A stretch of DNA of 64,000 nucleotides from Chryseobacterium potabilaquae (GTDB lineage: Bacteria; Bacteroidota; Bacteroidia; Flavobacteriales; Weeksellaceae), in the NCBI RefSeq assembly GCF_902728265.1, contig NZ_CACVBR010000001.1, forward strand, positions 186,001 through 250,000, written 5' to 3'. Under the pieces are notes generated by a model. That model was not told where the DNA came from. It made no database searches and worked only from the letters and a program-made list of their open reading frames with translations. Positions 51,100-58,390 of the stretch are shown here, one piece after another. Position 1 is the stretch's first letter. The number at the start of each line of letters is the position of its first letter. A program made the position numbers and the translations under genes.

Positions 51100-52359
51100 T
51101 TATGTCAGAAGCGACATCAACGACGGCTCTTCATTTAAATAGCTCACCAAGAAATTATTTTGTTTCATTTTAGAAAGTAGAATTTCAAAATCTTTTGTTT
51201 CTTTTACTACTATTCCTACTACAGCTATTCCTTTTTCTTTTGAATGTTTTTTGGTATATTCAAAAGTAGTAATATCATCAGTAGGTCCTAAAACATCCAT
51301 AACAAAAGATCTCAAAGCGCCTGGTCTTTGCGGAAATCTAACAAGAAAATAATGCTTTAATCCTGCATATAATAAAGCTTTTTCTTTAATTTCTTCCATA
51401 CGCGTGATATCATTATTACTCCCACTAATAATTGAAACCACATTTTTACCTTTGATTTGGTCTTTATATTCCTCTAAAGCTGATACCGATAAAGCACCGG
51501 CAGGCTCCACCACAATTGCATCTTTATTATACAGAGATAAAATTGTTTGGCAAATTTGTCCTTCTTCTATAAGGACTACATCATGAAGCCTATCTTTACA
51601 AGTTTCAAAAGTAATATCTCCCACTTTCTGTACGGCAGCACCATCCACAAAATGACTGATATTGTCTAATAAATAAGGAGCACCAGATTCTATTGCTCTT
51701 TTCATACTCGCAGCTCCTGAAGGCTCTGCACCAATAATCTTAGTATGAGGAGAAAGCTCCTGAAAGACTTTACAAACACCCGAAGCAAGTCCCCCTCCTC
51801 CTATCGGAACAAAGAGGTAATCAATGGGCACATCCGATTGCTGAAGAATCTCCAATGCAACAGTTGCCTGACCTTCAATAATAGAAGGATCATCAAAAGG
51901 ATGGATAAATGTTTTATCTTCACTTTCACAAAGTCTCATCGCTGCTTCCTTAGCTTCATCAAATGTATCTCCATATAACACTACCTCCACATAATTTCCT
52001 CCAAACATTTTTACTTGCTCCAATTTTTGATTAGGTGTAGGCAAAGGCATAAAAATTGTCCCTTTAGTTTTTAGGTGATTACATGCAGAAGCAACTCCCT
52101 GAGCATGATTTCCTGCACTTGCACAAACAACACCTTTTACAAGCTCATCGCTAGATAAGGTCATCATTTTGTTATACGCTCCTCTTATTTTATATGACCT
52201 TACCGTTTGTAAATCTTCTCTTTTAAAGCGAATATGGGCTCCATACAATTTTGAGAGATTCGTATTCATTTGCAAAGGCGTTTTCACTACTACATGACGG
52301 AGCCTTTCTGCTGCTTGATATATACTCTTAAAATCTGTCGAGTCAACTTCTGTTTTCAT
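51100..52359 (-). CDS. ilvA: Threonine ammonia-lyase (threonine deaminase)
   Basis: This 419-residue PLP enzyme has the cofactor lysine in SYKIRGAYNKM, the ASAGNHAQGVA substrate loop and the glycine-rich phosphate loop PIGGGGLASG. A C-terminal ACT-like domain (HYFLVRFPQRPGALRSFVMD) is shorter than the double one of E. coli IlvA. It makes 2-oxobutanoate, the first step of isoleucine synthesis. It is the last gene of the ilv operon, 4 bp after ilvC; its place there supports a biosynthetic rather than catabolic role. Confidence 0.96.
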   Translation of the reverse strand: MKTEVDSTDFKSIYQAAERLRHVVVKTPLQMNTNLSKLYGAHIRFKREDLQTVRSYKIRGAYNKMMTLSSDELVKGVVCASAGNHAQGVASACNHLKTKGTIFMPLPTPNQKLEQVKMFGGNYVEVVLYGDTFDEAKEAAMRLCESEDKTFIHPFDDPSIIEGQATVALEILQQSDVPIDYLFVPIGGGGLASGVCKVFQELSPHTKIIGAEPSGAASMKRAIESGAPYLLDNISHFVDGAAVQKVGDITFETCKDRLHDVVLIEEGQICQTILSLYNKDAIVVEPAGALSVSALEEYKDQIKGKNVVSIISGSNNDITRMEEIKEKALLYAGLKHYFLVRFPQRPGALRSFVMDVLGPTDDITTFEYTKKHSKEKGIAVVGIVVKETKDFEILLSKMKQNNFLVSYLNEEPSLMSLLT

Positions 52360-52363
52360 ACCA

Positions 52364-53410
52364 TTAATTATTTTCCGGTCTCAAGCTTCGAACAGTTTTC
52401 CCTGCTTTCCACATTTCACTTTCACGAAGTTCCGAAAGCTCTTCTTCTAGCTTTTCTCTATAGTCTACTTTACTATTACTATCAATGGAAAGTTGTGCTT
52501 CATTTCCTGAAGAAACACTATTATATAGCTCCTCAAATACAGGAGAAGTAGCATCTCTAAAGCGCTTCCACCAATCCAATGCTCCTCTTTGCGCAGTGGT
52601 ACTACAGTTAGCATACATCCAATCCATTCCGTTCTCTGCTACCAGAGGCATCAATGATTGAGTCAATTCCTCTACCGTTTCATTGAAAGCTTCAGAAGGA
52701 GAATGTCCATTTTTTCTCAACACTTCATACTGTGCTGCGAAAATTCCTTGGATTGCCCCCATTAAAGTTCCTCTTTCTCCAGCTAAATCACTATATACTT
52801 CTTTCTTAAAATCAGTTTCAAATAAATAACCACTTCCAATGGCTATCCCTAAAGCAACAACTCTATCTTTTGCTCTTCCCGTAGCATCTTGATGAATAGC
52901 AAAGCTACTGTTCAGCCCTCTACCTTGCAAAAACATTCTTCTTAATGATGTTCCTGAACCTTTTGGAGCTACAAGAAAAACATCCACATCCGCAGGAGGA
53001 TAAATTCCCGTACGCTCATTAAAAGTTACCCCAAAACCATGGGAAAAATAAAGGGCTTTTCCTGGGGTTAAGTGTTCTTTTACTTTTGGCCAATATTCTA
53101 TTTGAGCTGCATCACTTAATAAATAACAAATGATGGTTCCTCTTTTTAGTGCTTCTTCTATTTCAAATAAAGTTTCTCCCGGCACAAATCCATCTGCTAT
53201 AGCCTTATCCCAAGATTTAGAATTTTTACGCTGCCCAACGATTACATTGATCCCGTTTTCTTTTTGGTTAAGCGCCTGTCCTGGCCCTTGTACTCCGTAT
53301 CCAATTACCGCTACCACTTCATCTTTTAGAACTTCCTGTGCTTTTTCCAATGGAAATTCTTCTCTTGTAACTACATTCTCTTCTACTCCTCCGAAATTTA
53401 ATTTTGCCAT
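52364..53410 (-). CDS. ilvC: Ketol-acid reductoisomerase
   Basis: This 348-residue protein has an N-terminal NADP-binding Rossmann domain (VAVIGYGVQGPGQALNQKEN, then GQRKNSKSW for cofactor choice) and the knotted C-terminal domain with metal-binding acidic residues (DLAGERGTLMGAIQGIFAAQ, then FNETVEELTQ). It is the short-chain type. It converts acetohydroxy acids to dihydroxy acids in Ile and Val synthesis. It lies between ilvN (41 bp upstream) and ilvA. Confidence 0.97.
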   Translation of the reverse strand: MAKLNFGGVEENVVTREEFPLEKAQEVLKDEVVAVIGYGVQGPGQALNQKENGINVIVGQRKNSKSWDKAIADGFVPGETLFEIEEALKRGTIICYLLSDAAQIEYWPKVKEHLTPGKALYFSHGFGVTFNERTGIYPPADVDVFLVAPKGSGTSLRRMFLQGRGLNSSFAIHQDATGRAKDRVVALGIAIGSGYLFETDFKKEVYSDLAGERGTLMGAIQGIFAAQYEVLRKNGHSPSEAFNETVEELTQSLMPLVAENGMDWMYANCSTTAQRGALDWWKRFRDATSPVFEELYNSVSSGNEAQLSIDSNSKVDYREKLEEELSELRESEMWKAGKTVRSLRPENN

Positions 53411-53451: not shown

Positions 53452-53739
53452 TTAATTATTACTTGCGATTGCAGATACAGGTGAATTGATATGATGATAT
53501 ACCTGTAAAACATCGATTTGCTTTTCAATTTGACGAATAATCTTCCTCATTGCCTCTTCCGCTTCACTAAGAACGAATACTACTTTTTTTATACCAGGCA
53601 TTTCTGAAGAAGTCACATTCAAGCTTTCTATATTTACTCTTCTTCTTGAAAAAATAATACTTACCCTATTGAGCACTCCTGTTCGATTCTGCATATATAC
53701 AGTCACTGTAAATTCTTTTTTACCAGTCATAAGATTCAA
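53452..53739 (-). CDS. ilvN: Acetolactate synthase small (regulatory) subunit
   Basis: This 95-residue protein is essentially one ACT domain (FTVTVYMQNRTGVLNRVSII, FSRRRVNIESLNVTSSEMPG). It is shorter than the long IlvH type and so of the IlvN type. It binds valine for feedback control of IlvB. It starts 2 bp after the ilvB stop. Confidence 0.93.
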   Translation of the reverse strand: MNLMTGKKEFTVTVYMQNRTGVLNRVSIIFSRRRVNIESLNVTSSEMPGIKKVVFVLSEAEEAMRKIIRQIEKQIDVLQVYHHINSPVSAIASNN

Positions 53740-53741
53740 TT

Positions 53742-55493
53742 TTATATTTTTTCATTTTTTAACACTATTTCAGAAACACTTTTTCCTTGTGGAATCATTG
53801 GGAATACATTCTGTTCTTTTTCAACCATTATTTCCAAAATATAACTTCCATCATGATCCAACATTTCTTTCATCGCTGCTGCTAAATCTTCTCTAGCATG
53901 TATTTTTTTTCCTGGAATAGCATACGCTTCAGCGAGTTTTATAAAATCAGGGCTTTCAATATCCACAAATGAATATCTTTCATCATGAAATAGCTCCTGC
54001 CACTGTCTTACCATTCCTAAAAATGAATTATTAAGGATCATGATTTTCACATTGGGTTTAAATTGCATAATAGTCCCCAATTCTTGTATATTCATCTGTG
54101 CTCCACCATCTCCCATAATCGCTACTACAGGTCTATTCTGATCATCATAAGAAGCCCCAATCGCTGCAGGAAGACTGAATCCCATAGTTCCTAATCCTCC
54201 GCTGGTAATATTACTTTTGGAATGGTTAAACTGTATGTATCTACAAGTCACCATCTGGTGCTGCCCTACATCTGTAACCACAATTGCATTTCCCTGGGTT
54301 AATTCATTTAAATTACGAATCACTTCTCCCATTGAAATTTCACCTTCCATAGGGTTCAACTCCTTATCTATTACTTCATTATATTCGATCTCAGCACAAT
54401 GATCAAATCTACCTCTCCATTCCTTATATTCTTTAGGTTCTAATAATGGGGTAACTAAAGGCAGAGTCTGTTTACAATTTCCAAGTATAGCCACATCAGC
54501 AATTACATTTTTATTGATTTCCGCATCATCAATCTCAAAATGAATAATTTTTGCTTGGGTAGCATAGGTATCCACTTTTCCAGTCACACGATCATCAAAA
54601 CGCATTCCTACTGCAATAAGTACATCGCATTCATTAGTGAGTACATTCGGGCCATAATTACCATGCATTCCTACCATTCCTACTGCAGAAGGATGATGAG
54701 TCGGGATAGCGCTCATTCCTAAAACCGTCCAAGCAACCGGAATCCCCGATTTTTCAGCAAATTCCAAAAATTCTTGTTCAGCCTTACCTAGTATTACCCC
54801 TTGTCCAACAATGATAAAAGGACGTTTTGCAGAGTTGATAAGATTTGCTGCTTTTTTGATATGATCCAATTCAGGTGTAGGATATGGATCATAAGTAGAA
54901 ATAAAGCTACATGGTTCATATTCTTTAAACTGAATCTTTTGTAGCTGGGCATTTTTAGTAATATCAACCACAACCGGTCCCGGTCTTCCGGATTTAGCAA
55001 TATAAAAAGCTTTTGCCAACATTTCAGGTAGCTCTTCTGCATCCGTAACTTGGCAATTCCATTTTGTAACGGGAGTAGTAATATTAATAACATCAATCTC
55101 TTGGAAAGCATCAGTTCCTAAAAGATGAGCATACACCTGACCTGTAATACATACCACTGGAGTACTATCCAGCAAAGCATCTGCTAAACCTGTAATTAAA
55201 TTGGTCGCTCCTGGTCCACTGGTTGCTAGCGCCACTCCTACATTTCCTGACACCCGAGCAAGTCCTTGTGCAGCATGCACCGCACCTTGTTCATGACGAA
55301 CAAGAATATGTTCCAATTTTTCTCTATAATCATACAGTGAATCATAAATAGGAATGATTGCCCCTCCGGGATATCCGAATATTGTTTTGACCCCTTCATG
55401 TAGAAGAATTTCCAGGATTACTTGACTCCCACTTAACTCTCTTACAGTTCCATTTTCTACACTCATATTCATTATTTTACAATTTTGGTTCAT
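53742..55493 (-). CDS. ilvB: Acetolactate synthase large (catalytic) subunit
   Basis: This 583-residue ThDP enzyme shows the catalytic Glu in [16 protein letters not shown], the FAD/ThDP middle domain and the ThDP-Mg motif [12 protein letters not shown]...[11 protein letters not shown] near residues 445-480. The start at 55493 overlaps ilvD by 17 bp; Met codons at 55472 and 55466 are alternatives, and the latter removes the overlap. It forms 2-acetolactate and 2-aceto-2-hydroxybutanoate. Confidence 0.97.
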
Positions 55494-57159
55494 CTGTTAC
55501 GCAGCCTTCAGCTGCTGAGGAAACACTTACTGCATATTTGTACAATAAGCCTTTTTTCACTTTCAATTCTGGTTGTACCCAATTCTTCTTTCTTCGATCG
55601 ATTTCCTCTTGAGTTACTTTCAGCTGTATGGTATTATTCACTGCATCTATCTCAATAAGATCATCATCTTTCACAAAAGCAATTAAACCTCCTTCGTAAG
55701 CTTCCGGAGTAATATGTCCCACCACAAAACCATGTGTTCCTCCACTAAAACGTCCATCTGTAATTAAAGCTACCGTATTTCCAAATCCAGCTCCAATCAG
55801 TACACTTGTAGGTTTTAACATTTCAGGCATCCCCGGAGCACCTTTTGGACCTTCGTTTCTGATCACAATCACATCTCCATGTTGCACTCTTTGGCTCTCT
55901 ATTCCTTTTATCAAATCTTTTTCTCCATCAAAAACCCTTGCGGTTCCCAAAAACTTCTCTCCTTCTTTTCCTGTTATTTTCGCCACACTTCCCCCTTCTG
56001 CTAGATTCCCATACAGAATTCTCAAATGTCCTGTTTCTTTTATAGGCTGGGAAATCGGCTTTATAATTTTTTGTTTTGAAAAATCAAGTTCAGGAACATT
56101 TTCTAGATTTTCGCTAATTGTTTTTCCTGTCACGGTAAGACAATCTCCATGCAGTAAACCTTCTTTAAGCAAATACTTCATCACCGCTGGTATTCCTCCA
56201 TGCTCATGAAGATCCTGCATAAGATATTTTCCACTTGGTTTTAAGTCTGCTAAAACAGGAGTAACATCACTCATTTTCTGAAAATCATCTTGCGTTACAG
56301 AAACTCCAACACTTTTAGCCATCGCAATAAAATGTAATACCGCATTGGTACTTCCTCCTAAAATCACAATGATACGAAGTGCATTTTCAAAAGCCTTGCG
56401 TGTCATAATATCAGAAGGTTTTATATCTTTTTCTAATAATAGTTTTATATATTTTCCGGCATCTTGACATTCCTGCTGCTTCTCTTTACTTAATGCAGGA
56501 TTGGATGATGAATAAGGTAAGCTCATTCCCAACGCTTCTATTGCCGAAGCCATCGTATTAGCGGTGTACATTCCTCCACAAGCCCCTGCTCCGGGACATG
56601 CGTTCTTTACAACCCCTTTGAAGTCTTCTTCCGTTACATTCCCTGCTATTTTCTGTCCCAAAACTTCAAAAGCGGAAACAATATTTAGCTGTTCTCCTTT
56701 ATAACAACCAGGTGCTATGGTTCCTCCATATACCATTATTGATGGCCTGTTAAGCCTTCCCATGGCAATAATACTTCCCGGCATATTTTTATCACATCCC
56801 GGCAAAGTAATGAGGCCATCATAATATTGCCCTCCGCATATTGCTTCAATACTATCTGCTATCACATCCCGGCTTACTAAAGAATAACGCATTCCATCCG
56901 TCCCATTACTCATCCCATCACTAACGCCTATTGTATTAAATATCAAGCCTGCCAATTCATTTTCCCATACTCCCTTTTTTACCACTTTTGCAAGATCATT
57001 AAGGTGCATATTACAAGTATTACCATCATAGCCCATACTAGCAATACCTACTTGCCCTTTATTCATATCTTCATCGGTGAAACCAATTCCGTATAACATT
57101 GCTTTAGCCGCGGGCTGCTCATCATTCTGTGTAAAAATTTTTGAATATTTATTAAGCAT
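55477..57159 (-). CDS. ilvD: Dihydroxy-acid dehydratase
   Basis: This 560-residue protein carries the iron-sulfur cysteines in [11 protein letters not shown] and [19 protein letters not shown], the [14 protein letters not shown] block and the C-terminal [20 protein letters not shown]. It makes the 2-oxo acid precursors of valine and isoleucine. It overlaps the end of ilvE by 8 bp, so the two are translationally coupled. Confidence 0.97.
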
Positions 57160-58057
57160 TTTCTTCTACCTTATTTTTAAATTCGTTAATACTTTTACCG
57201 ACTACTCTATTTTTATAGGATTTTTGAATTAGAGAGCATAAGCTTTCATCCCATTCTTTTGCAAAACGTACGTTATCCATAGAGTCTAATGCTACAATTT
57301 CAGCAGCAGTCCCACAGAAAAAAGCAGCATCCGCTCCTCGCATTTCCTCTGGTGTGAAAAATTTCTCATGTACAGGGATTTCCAACTCTTTGCATATATC
57401 GATTACTACAGACCTTGTGATGCCCGGTAAAATACTTCCTTTAGCAGGAGTAAAAAGCTCACCTTCTTTTTCGTAAAAAATATTAGCTCCGGAGCTCTCT
57501 GCTACATATCCCTTCTCATCTAATAAAATAGCTTCATCATATCCGTTATCTTTTGCTTCCTGACAAGCTAAAATAGAATTCACATAATGTCCCCCTACTT
57601 TTGCCTCTATTAAAAAAGCTTGTGGATTTGGCCTTTGAAAAGAAGAAGTCATTACTTTCATTTTATCACCGAGATAACCATTACTCCACTCCCATGCTAA
57701 TAAGATTAAATGAGATTCTTTTCCTTTTGATAGAGACATATTGGGTGGACAAACAACTAGTGGCCGAATATATGCGTTGGTAAATTGATTTCTCTCTAGC
57801 AATTCATACGTCAAATCTATAAGCTCTTGCGTAGAATATTCAAAAGGAATATGCAATAATTCAGCAGAACGTCTTAAACGATCATAATGTTCTTGCGCCT
57901 TAAAAACTTGGGTCCCTTCATTCGTTTCATAAGATTTTATCCCTTCAAAAACAGAATAACCATAATGTAATGATTGTCCATAGAGATCGATATTGGCTTC
58001 CGAGGCTTTTAAAAATTTACCATTGTAATACACAATAGTGTTGTCGTTATAATACAT
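57152..58057 (-). CDS. ilvE: Branched-chain amino acid aminotransferase
   Basis: This 301-residue fold-type IV PLP enzyme shows [20 protein letters not shown] near residue 32, the lysine in [20 protein letters not shown] and [20 protein letters not shown], the family's key blocks. It carries out the final transamination to Ile, Val and Leu. It is the first structural gene after the tandem attenuators, so its expression, and that of everything downstream, should depend on charged branched-chain tRNAs. Confidence 0.96.
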
Positions 58058-58092
58058 TTATTTTAAGTTTTATTTATAAAAAGAGTAAAAAA

Positions 58093-58120
58093 AAGCCTTC
58101 TCAAATTTGTGAGAAGGCTT
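58093..58120 (-). terminator. Attenuator terminator 2 (ilvE-proximal)
   Basis: AAGCCTTCTC (58093-58102) and GAGAAGGCTT (58111-58120) are perfect 10-bp complements, followed on the minus strand by eight T. It ends 36 bp before ilvE. The segment TTGTGAGA at 58107-58114 is complementary to TCTCACAA at 58151-58158, at the end of leader ORF 2, providing the competing antiterminator. Confidence 0.9.
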
Positions 58121-58152
58121 ATAAGTATATATACATAATTATACTTTCCATC

Positions 58153-58212
58153 TCACAACCGTAAGGGAATAATAATGACAATGACAACGATAATAATTAC
58201 TATCTGGTTCAT
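58153..58212 (-). CDS. ilvL: Leader peptide 2 of the ilv operon
   Basis: A 19-codon ORF starts with ATG at 58212 and reads MNQIVIIIVVIVIIIPLRL. It holds eight Ile, four Val and two Leu codons. Its stop overlaps the antiterminator arm, so a ribosome that finishes the peptide would mask it and favour the terminator at 58093. This is the layout of a classical amino-acid attenuator for an Ile/Val/Leu operon. Confidence 0.88.
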   Translation of the reverse strand: MNQIVIIIVVIVIIIPLRL

Positions 58213-58225
58213 GACACAATTAAAA

Positions 58226-58251
58226 AAGCCGTCTCAATAATGAAACGGCTT
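58226..58251 (-). terminator. Attenuator terminator 1 (promoter-proximal)
   Basis: AAGCCGTCTC (58226-58235) and GAAACGGCTT (58242-58251) pair with one mismatch, followed on the minus strand by six T. GAAACGG at 58242-58248 is complementary to CCGTTTC at 58280-58286, immediately after the leader ORF 1 stop, giving an alternative antiterminator. Confidence 0.85.
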
Positions 58252-58286
58252 ATATTTATTTATATTAATTTTTACAATACCGTTTC

Positions 58287-58349
58287 CTAATTATTGCTAA
58301 TGACAATAATATTGACTAAGGAAGTGATATTGATATTTTTCTGACTCAT
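58287..58349 (-). CDS. Leader peptide 1 of the ilv operon
   Basis: A 20-codon ORF starts with ATG at 58349 and reads MSQKNINITSLVNIIVISNN: five Ile, two Val, one Leu, clustered in the second half with Asn. The antiterminator arm begins at the base after the stop codon. The ORF starts only a few bases after the expected transcription start. It has the same relation to its hairpin as leader 2, but fewer regulatory codons. Confidence 0.8.
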   Translation of the reverse strand: MSQKNINITSLVNIIVISNN

Positions 58350-58359
58350 AATTACAATA

Positions 58360-58390
58360 CAAATATATGGACTTTTTAATACAATCCAAA
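58360..58390 (-). promoter_or_regulatory. ilv operon promoter
   Basis: On the minus strand TTTG (58390-58387), 19 bp, TATATTTG (58367-58360): an exact match to the Bacteroidota consensus TTTG-N19-TAnnTTTG. It lies 10 bp before leader ORF 1. Confidence 0.82.

Follow-up and report, generated by a model that had tools for sequence, protein, structure and literature searches.

Ahead of the ilvEDBNCA operon of Chryseobacterium potabilaquae there are very probably two complete leader-peptide attenuators, one after the other; they are predicted to lie on one transcript, and both would likely have to be read through before the operon is expressed. This reading is drawn from sequence comparison, starting from a window of 64,000 nucleotides (the whole stretch of DNA that was analysed). 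The original prediction of two such units in tandem before ilvE has held: both are read directly in the sequence, no pair arose in a combined 2,980 shuffled sequences, and both leaders with their terminators are found in every assessable genome of the clade (85 of 85, the window included). On the minus strand, the order between a folP-like gene (Pterin_bind, same strand) and ilvE is promoter, leader ORF 1, terminator 1, leader ORF 2 and terminator 2; the regulatory stretch spans 58389-58093 and the ATG of ilvE is at 58057. The features are as follows.

58360-58389, minus strand: promoter, read from the sequence, with TTG at 58389-58387, a 19-nt spacer and the -7 box TATATTTG at 58367-58360
58355, minus strand: predicted transcription start, placed from the position of the box, which gives a 6-nt 5' UTR in the window
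58287-58349, minus strand: leader ORF 1, MSQKNINITSLVNIIVISNN, with control codons I14 I15 V16 I17
58290-58310, minus strand: hairpin P1 within leader 1, ATTATTG/CAATAAT
58280-58286, minus strand: antiterminator arm A1, GAAACGG, exact complement of CCGTTTC at 58248-58242
58227-58250, minus strand: intrinsic terminator 1, fold -14.9 kcal/mol, T-run at 58227-58222
58153-58212, minus strand: leader ORF 2, MNQIVIIIVVIVIIIPLRL, with control codons I11 V12 I13 I14 I15
58151-58158, minus strand: antiterminator arm A2, TTGTGAGA, exact complement of TCTCACAA at 58114-58107
58147-58168, minus strand: protector (1:2) hairpin, TCC+CTTAC / GTGAG+GGA, -4.9 kcal/mol
58123-58146, minus strand: hairpin P2 between both antiterminator arms of unit 2
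58093-58120, minus strand: intrinsic terminator 2, fold -16.0 kcal/mol, T-run at 58094-58087
57152-58057, minus strand: ilvE, branched-chain aminotransferase (NF005146 / TIGR01122 above cut-off)
55477-57159, minus strand: ilvD, dihydroxy-acid dehydratase (TIGR00110 above cut-off)
53742-55493, minus strand: ilvB, acetolactate synthase large subunit (TIGR00118 above cut-off)
53452-53739, minus strand: ilvN-like small subunit with an ACT domain (PF22629 ACT_AHAS_ss, E 2.8e-15)
52364-53410, minus strand: ilvC, ketol-acid reductoisomerase (TIGR00465 above cut-off)
51100-52359, minus strand: ilvA, threonine ammonia-lyase (NF006390 / TIGR02079 above cut-off)

The operon order is thus ilvE-ilvD-ilvB-ilvN-like (ACT small subunit)-ilvC-ilvA. 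The ilvN-like small subunit matches no NCBIfam family at 1e-20, and its listed TTG start may differ from the true start. Several details of the original prediction are borne out by the letters themselves: the promoter was claimed at 58360-58390, and a TTG and a -7 box are read at 58389-58360; the 7-bp match of unit 1 and the 8-bp match of unit 2 are both exactly complementary; and the I/V/L count of leader 2 is 14/19, as given (leader 1 has 8/20). Terminator 1 is also present, but its 3' end had been given as 58226, one base off the end of the stem at 58227. Arm A2 overlaps the stop codon of leader 2. The A1..B1 and A2..B2 folds, which can form before the terminator 3' arm is made, have predicted energies of -11.4 and -15.3 kcal/mol, close to those of the respective terminators (-14.9 and -16.0 kcal/mol).

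The window holds no Rfam match above the gathering cut-off. A search of the region that admitted E values up to 1 gave 11 matches, all below cut-off (best 30.4 bits versus 60) and none of them a T-box, so that a T-box or other Rfam riboswitch or leader finds no support. Elsewhere in the same genome, a leader with His codons (MNQNFLTLHHYHHFC, 4 His of 15) and a terminator are found about 201 nt before a hisG match (L226, G000:C20), and this leader is a single unit. For the leucine operon, no leader was found in the examined stretch upstream of leuC, where a leuA-like ORF lies (by reading).

Units were sought with a detector that required three things together: an ORF that starts with ATG, is 10-45 codons long and has many I/V/L codons; an intrinsic terminator; and an antiterminator arm. 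A strict first version missed unit 1 in many clade members on account of the I/V/L fraction cut-off and of TTG starts, and the relaxed detector was recalibrated on shuffles. Dinucleotide shuffles of ilvD upstream regions (n=1,800) gave one unit in 9 and two in 0, and those of ilvE upstream regions (n=1,180, slightly looser settings) gave one unit in 2 and two in 0; the same 1,180 ilvE shuffles without the antiterminator rule gave one unit in 13 and two in 0. Over the whole window and on both strands, the detector returned both target units and two other single matches, each inside a longer ORF.

Within the Chryseobacterium clade, each of 47 distinct loci (window included) carries a pair of terminators within its last 330 nt (47/47). 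Both leaders are present in all 47 of these first loci by the relaxed rule with no antiterminator demanded, and in 43/47 when a 6-bp antiterminator is demanded, under which rule unit 1 drops out in L017, L027, L065 and L074. From 21 of the 47 loci a covariance model was made that covers unit 2 alone; run over 173 genomes of the genus, it gave 93 matches at E <= 0.001, of which 86 were strong (E 4.3e-11 or lower; next best 2.3e-6). The 86 strong genomes comprise 46 of the first set and 40 further ones, and all 40 were inspected (one of them, L264, repeats L048 of the first set; L265 repeats L052; four identical upstream regions were removed before counting). Both leaders and terminators are present in 39 of the further 40 loci, 37 of them with the antiterminator rule, and the remaining locus, G689, runs into the end of its contig and is not assessable; the ilvE start was recognised by script in 39/40 and is plain in the sequence in L238. 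In total, both leaders and terminators precede ilvE in all assessable genomes, and two units are kept in 79/85 when the 6-bp antiterminator is demanded. A further 20 loci of the genus were examined; each has a single unit, which resembles unit 2 in position and type.

Both leader stretches keep lengths divisible by three in 46 aligned relatives, and the leader peptides are similar across the clade; leader 1 ends early in L027. In the clade alignment, minority letters by codon position number 86, 91 and 87 in leader 1, with no third-position excess, and 74, 21 and 51 in leader 2; neither these counts nor the early end in L027 indicate selection on the leader peptide as such. The terminator stems are paired in 99.5% of cells (terminator 1) and 99.6% (terminator 2, with one compensatory pair) over 47 sequences. 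The protector of unit 2 is paired in 376/376 cells versus 40-52% in slid controls, with no both-side change; that of unit 1 has just 4 pairs and a slid control nearly equal to it (97.9% versus 95.7% paired). Hairpin P1 is paired in 98.2% of cells with both-side changes in 4/6 pairs (47 sequences), its slid controls being up to 82% paired at +/-3, and this covarying hairpin inside the coding sequence of leader 1 is possibly an RNA polymerase pause hairpin or a spacer hairpin. P2 is paired in 97% of cells, and no covariation was found in it among the 47 sequences.

Of the antiterminators, the A1 pairing is kept in 95.5% of cells with a compensatory change in 0/8 pairs, and the A2 pairing in 91.8%, with such a change in one pair, the only varying one, which is unpaired in 22/47. 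The cores are nearly invariant, and covariation within the clade, rejected as a proof because there is too little variation, neither supports nor refutes pairing. Support for the predicted antiterminators comes instead from comparison between lineages and from codon geometry. In a swap test on 68 non-redundant units across lineages, picked without requiring an antiterminator, the unit's own complementary run averaged 5.72 versus 4.45 for swapped arms, and 0/5,000 permutations were as high. The own run is at least 6 bp in just 35/68 units, and swapped arms reach 6 bp in 609/4,556 cases, so that any single 6-bp match is weak.

The geometry was examined in 75 non-redundant leaders aligned on arm A, a few spurious ones included. 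Codons for I/V/L occupy 80-88% of positions 15-26 nt upstream of arm A (60, 66, 61 and 64 of 75), then 55% at 12-14 nt (40/73), 15% at 9-11 nt (11/72), 19% at 6-8 nt (12/64) and 9% at 3-5 nt (5/56). The distance from the ribosomal A site to the leading edge is about 12 nt, and hence the codons at which a stall would cover arm A are mostly not I/V/L. The spread of the block relative to arm A is slightly tighter than relative to the stop codon (MAD 2 versus 3 nt, SD 6.3 versus 6.6). Fifteen units have an arm that starts 10 nt or more ahead of the end of the stop codon; in 9/15 of them the block stops 12-16 nt short of the arm but 21-30 nt short of the stop codon, and unit 1 of the clade supplies four of these nine.

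At stalling distance, unit 1 of the window has the codons I-I-V-I and unit 2 has I-V-I-I-I, and the corresponding control codons of the clade are mostly (A/I)-V-V-I-x in unit 1 and I-V-I-I-I in 46/47 loci in unit 2. The Leu codons of the window lie 33 nt from the arm in unit 1 and 6 and 0 nt from it in unit 2, outside the control zone, and so no response to Leu is predicted.

The predicted start of the transcript is tied to a single promoter. A TAnnTTTG box is placed at -12 to -5 in Flavobacterium psychrophilum, according to the available part of the source (PMC9723704), and the start sites given here are extrapolated from the position of this motif in that other genus. The box precedes leader 1 in 46/47 clade loci, the locus without it being L074; in the 46 loci no second TAnnTTTG box was found between the units or elsewhere in the 420 nt before ilvE. 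The gap from the box to the ATG of leader 1 is 4 nt in 45/47 clade loci and in 35/40 later loci, or in 79/85 genomes overall once the repeat locus and the contig-cut locus are removed. A 4-nt gap puts the A of AUG at +1, so that leader 1 is predicted to be leaderless in these 79 genomes. The window itself has no ATG 4 nt past the box, and the ATG used sits 10 nt past it. In other lineages the gap is 14-23 nt in 48/49 loci and 7 nt in L127, the 49 loci being those with a box no more than 40 nt from the first recognised leader. Five more loci (L074, L249, L252, L255 and L258) keep the 4-nt spacing with a degenerate box; they form a sub-lineage with a leader 1 of the MNFTNQKNIIVISIINTIVIQ type and the -7 box TACCTTTA, in which unit 1 has possibly changed or decayed.

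Comparative genomics places similar arrangements well beyond this clade. By the relaxed rule, two units are found in g11 (2/3, one detection set aside), g12 (2/2), g21 (1/1), g26 (3/4), g28 (2/3), g54 (2/2) and g35 (2/3), as well as in two Flavobacterium, one Tenacibaculum and Roseivirga L061, and three units are found in L055. By the antiterminator rule, two units remain in g11 (2/3), g12 (2/2), g21 (0/1), g26 (3/4), g28 (1/3), g54 (2/2) and g35 (1/3); Tenacibaculum keeps two, and each Flavobacterium, L055 and L061 keep one. In the neighbouring genus g9 the antiterminator rule leaves one unit in 14/16 loci. A second detection in 11/16 of its loci (2/16 with the antiterminator rule) looks unrelated and was left out of account, as were a second detection in L090 and a third in L008. 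All of these are probably the ends of upstream genes that have nothing to do with the leader, a judgement made by eye on those for which the peptide was listed; some of them (L008, L086) are still among the 75 leaders. No unit was found upstream in L051, L060 and L102, and L052 is cut. Inspection of L127 (g35) by eye shows three terminators along with three leader-like ORFs, of which the first begins with TTG. In both L055 (MAG FLAVO1) and L127 (G393) the apparent triple arrays before ilvE have near-identical units 2 and 3, suggesting that a unit may have been duplicated recently. Three of the 16 weaker matches of the unit-2 model were examined (G699, G645 and a second site in G703), and in all three a tandem array of a different type precedes an ilvE; G703 apparently has two ilvE loci with different tandem leader types (L271, L273). 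In the Chitinophagaceae L049, L053 and L054, longer single leaders (33 codons) and GC-rich terminators precede ilvE. In family f3 (taken as Flavobacteriaceae), the regions upstream of ilvD, irrespective of whether ilvD heads its operon, have one unit in 33, two in 5 and none in 52 of 90 loci; these stand for 90 of 109 genomes with an IlvD match (30 loci returned and 60 fetched, with 19 left out).

The pair had been described as unusual for a Bacteroidota genome. It is real, but it is not the curiosity of a single genome: pairs, along with two apparent triples, are found in several Flavobacteriales lineages, and single units in others. A tree of IlvE with 74 rows unites the Chryseobacterium clade with the two Flavobacterium (100/85) and places rows with a single unit beside them, and the remaining tandem rows sit far away; two gains of the tandem, or one gain and several losses, are both possible origins. 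The two Flavobacterium (L045, L046) have leaders that resemble those of the Chryseobacterium clade, with which their IlvE groups, and the operon together with its leader may have moved between families.

The proposed mechanism follows from this arrangement. The RNA would begin near leader 1, as predicted from the -7 box, and a ribosome would load at or within a few nucleotides of its 5' end. When Ile-tRNA and Val-tRNA are ample, the ribosome would reach the stop codon and cover arm A, the terminator (3:4) would form, and transcription would end in unit 1 at about 58222. When Ile or Val is short, the geometry implies that the ribosome would stall when its A site is 12-26 nt upstream of arm A, the free arm A would pair with the 5' arm of the terminator (2:3), and the polymerase would continue. 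Unit 2 would repeat the decision at about 58087, and on ribosome-free RNA its protector (1:2) would favour termination. Since both units have Ile together with Val as control codons, the probabilities of readthrough would multiply, as a matter of arithmetic, with lower leak, wider range and a steeper 'pseudo-cooperative' response. Most likely, then, the two gates would multiply on a common signal rather than form an AND of different amino acids. Of the two-step or AND-type response originally envisaged, the serial two-step form is favoured, but an AND over different amino acids is not, both gates having Ile/Val codons at the stalling position; an AND over Ile, Val and Leu was rejected because the Leu codons lie beyond the control zone.

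Other explanations of the pair were weighed against multiplying gates with a common signal. The two gates may differ in weight, unit 1 reading mainly Val (with Ile) and unit 2 mainly Ile, in a partial AND; the Val-rich control codons of unit 1 in most of the clade, set against those of unit 2, speak for this, and an operon that makes both Ile and Val would fit it, but in most of the clade the last position of unit 1 at which a stall would be effective is an Ile codon, the window has I-I-V-I there, and a shortage of Ile alone should open both gates, so that we consider a division of this kind unlikely. That one unit alone senses, the other being a constitutive partial terminator or a relic, appears quite improbable: the ORF and terminator of both units are kept throughout the assessable genomes, and hairpin P1 in leader 1 covaries, although single-unit relatives exist in which the operon presumably works with one, L074 combines its degenerate box with an imperfect terminator 1, and two units no longer remain in 6/85 genomes once the antiterminator rule is applied.

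Terminated leader RNAs or leader peptides might act in trans, in the manner of rnTrpL and peTrpL of Sinorhizobium meliloti, for which the available part of the report describes trans roles of a leaderless attenuator RNA (PMC7298713). The similarity of the leader peptides across the clade would suit such a role, but the conserved elements are explicable in cis, and action in trans is very improbable here. It is scarcely credible that the terminators merely insulate ilvE from transcription of the upstream folP and that the ORFs are there by chance; the folP-like gene does lie on the same strand, but a conserved promoter box precedes both terminators, leader lengths, codon geometry and arms are conserved, and the shuffles yielded no pair of units.

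The attenuators of the E. coli ilvGMEDA, trp and his type are single leader-peptide attenuators of amino-acid operons. The present units resemble them in having a leader ORF rich in codons for the product, mutually exclusive antiterminator and terminator structures with a predicted protector, and a position upstream of a biosynthetic operon. They differ in that there are two serial copies (up to three in relatives) and in that the first leader is predicted to be leaderless in most of the clade.

A search of the open-access literature for tandem leader-ORF attenuators found none besides the mgtCBR leader of Salmonella, in which two short ORFs, mgtM and mgtP, each control transcription (PMC3641672). 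As the available part of that paper describes it, the mgtCBR signals differ (ATP and proline) and act additively, and its stem-loops are unlike intrinsic terminators, whereas the two units here appear to read the same amino acids and both have intrinsic terminators (PMC3641672). A two-signal tandem of the mgtCBR type was set aside, as Ile/Val codons are placed for control in both units. The proposed logic resembles that of the tandem TPP and c-di-GMP-I riboswitches, same-signal sensors in series that the available part of a paper on them calls pseudo-cooperative (PMC9481103); they are complete sensors, each with its own decision point, from which a steeper 'digital' output is expected, but their sensor is a ligand-binding aptamer and not a translating ribosome (PMC9481103). 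For a tandem with the same signal, two complete units lie behind a single TAnnTTTG box in 46/47 loci, and the identity of the signal is judged by codon placement only: Ile/Val in both sets of control codons, with unit 1 weighted to Val in most of the clade.

Partial parallels come from three further systems. In the rimP leader of several Gammaproteobacteria, as here, the first terminator is preceded by another one that has a potential antiterminator, but unlike here no amino-acid-reading leader ORF is described in the available part of that report (PMC2965389). The trpL attenuator RNA of S. meliloti, an alphaproteobacterium, has its 5' end at the leader ATG, like leader 1 where it is predicted to be leaderless, but it is a single Trp leader rather than a tandem (PMC7298713, in its available part). 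For F. psychrophilum, strong clues for leader-peptide attenuation before amino-acid operons have been presented, with no tandem arrangement described in the available part of the paper (PMC9723704). Attenuation of amino-acid operons in Flavobacteriales is in itself not new, and the single His-codon leader before hisG is a further example in the present genome.

In the available part of the same source, the genes of this group are described as being without Shine-Dalgarno sequences (PMC9723704). The codon edge at about 12 nt over 75 leaders indicates that ribosomes would follow RNA polymerase closely at these leaders, and an AUG at +1 suggests how a ribosome could arrive in time. Coupling of transcription and translation in Bacteroidota has, to our knowledge, been little studied. 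Classic attenuation is one leader and one terminator; two or three units in series with the same signal would correspond to tandem riboswitches, with the ribosome as sensor, and would make testable predictions on leak, range and steepness; the natural single, double and triple heads of the same operon are a ready comparative series. A broader proposal, which we put forward tentatively and at somewhat short of even odds, is that serial attenuation is a standing architecture of Flavobacteriales, in which two or three same-signal units act as near-digital starvation switches and the first sensor of the Chryseobacterium clade has a leaderless AUG at +1. If this is true, the leaderless AUG would let a ribosome load as soon as the transcript emerges, and transcription and translation would be tightly coupled at these 5' ends in Bacteroidota.
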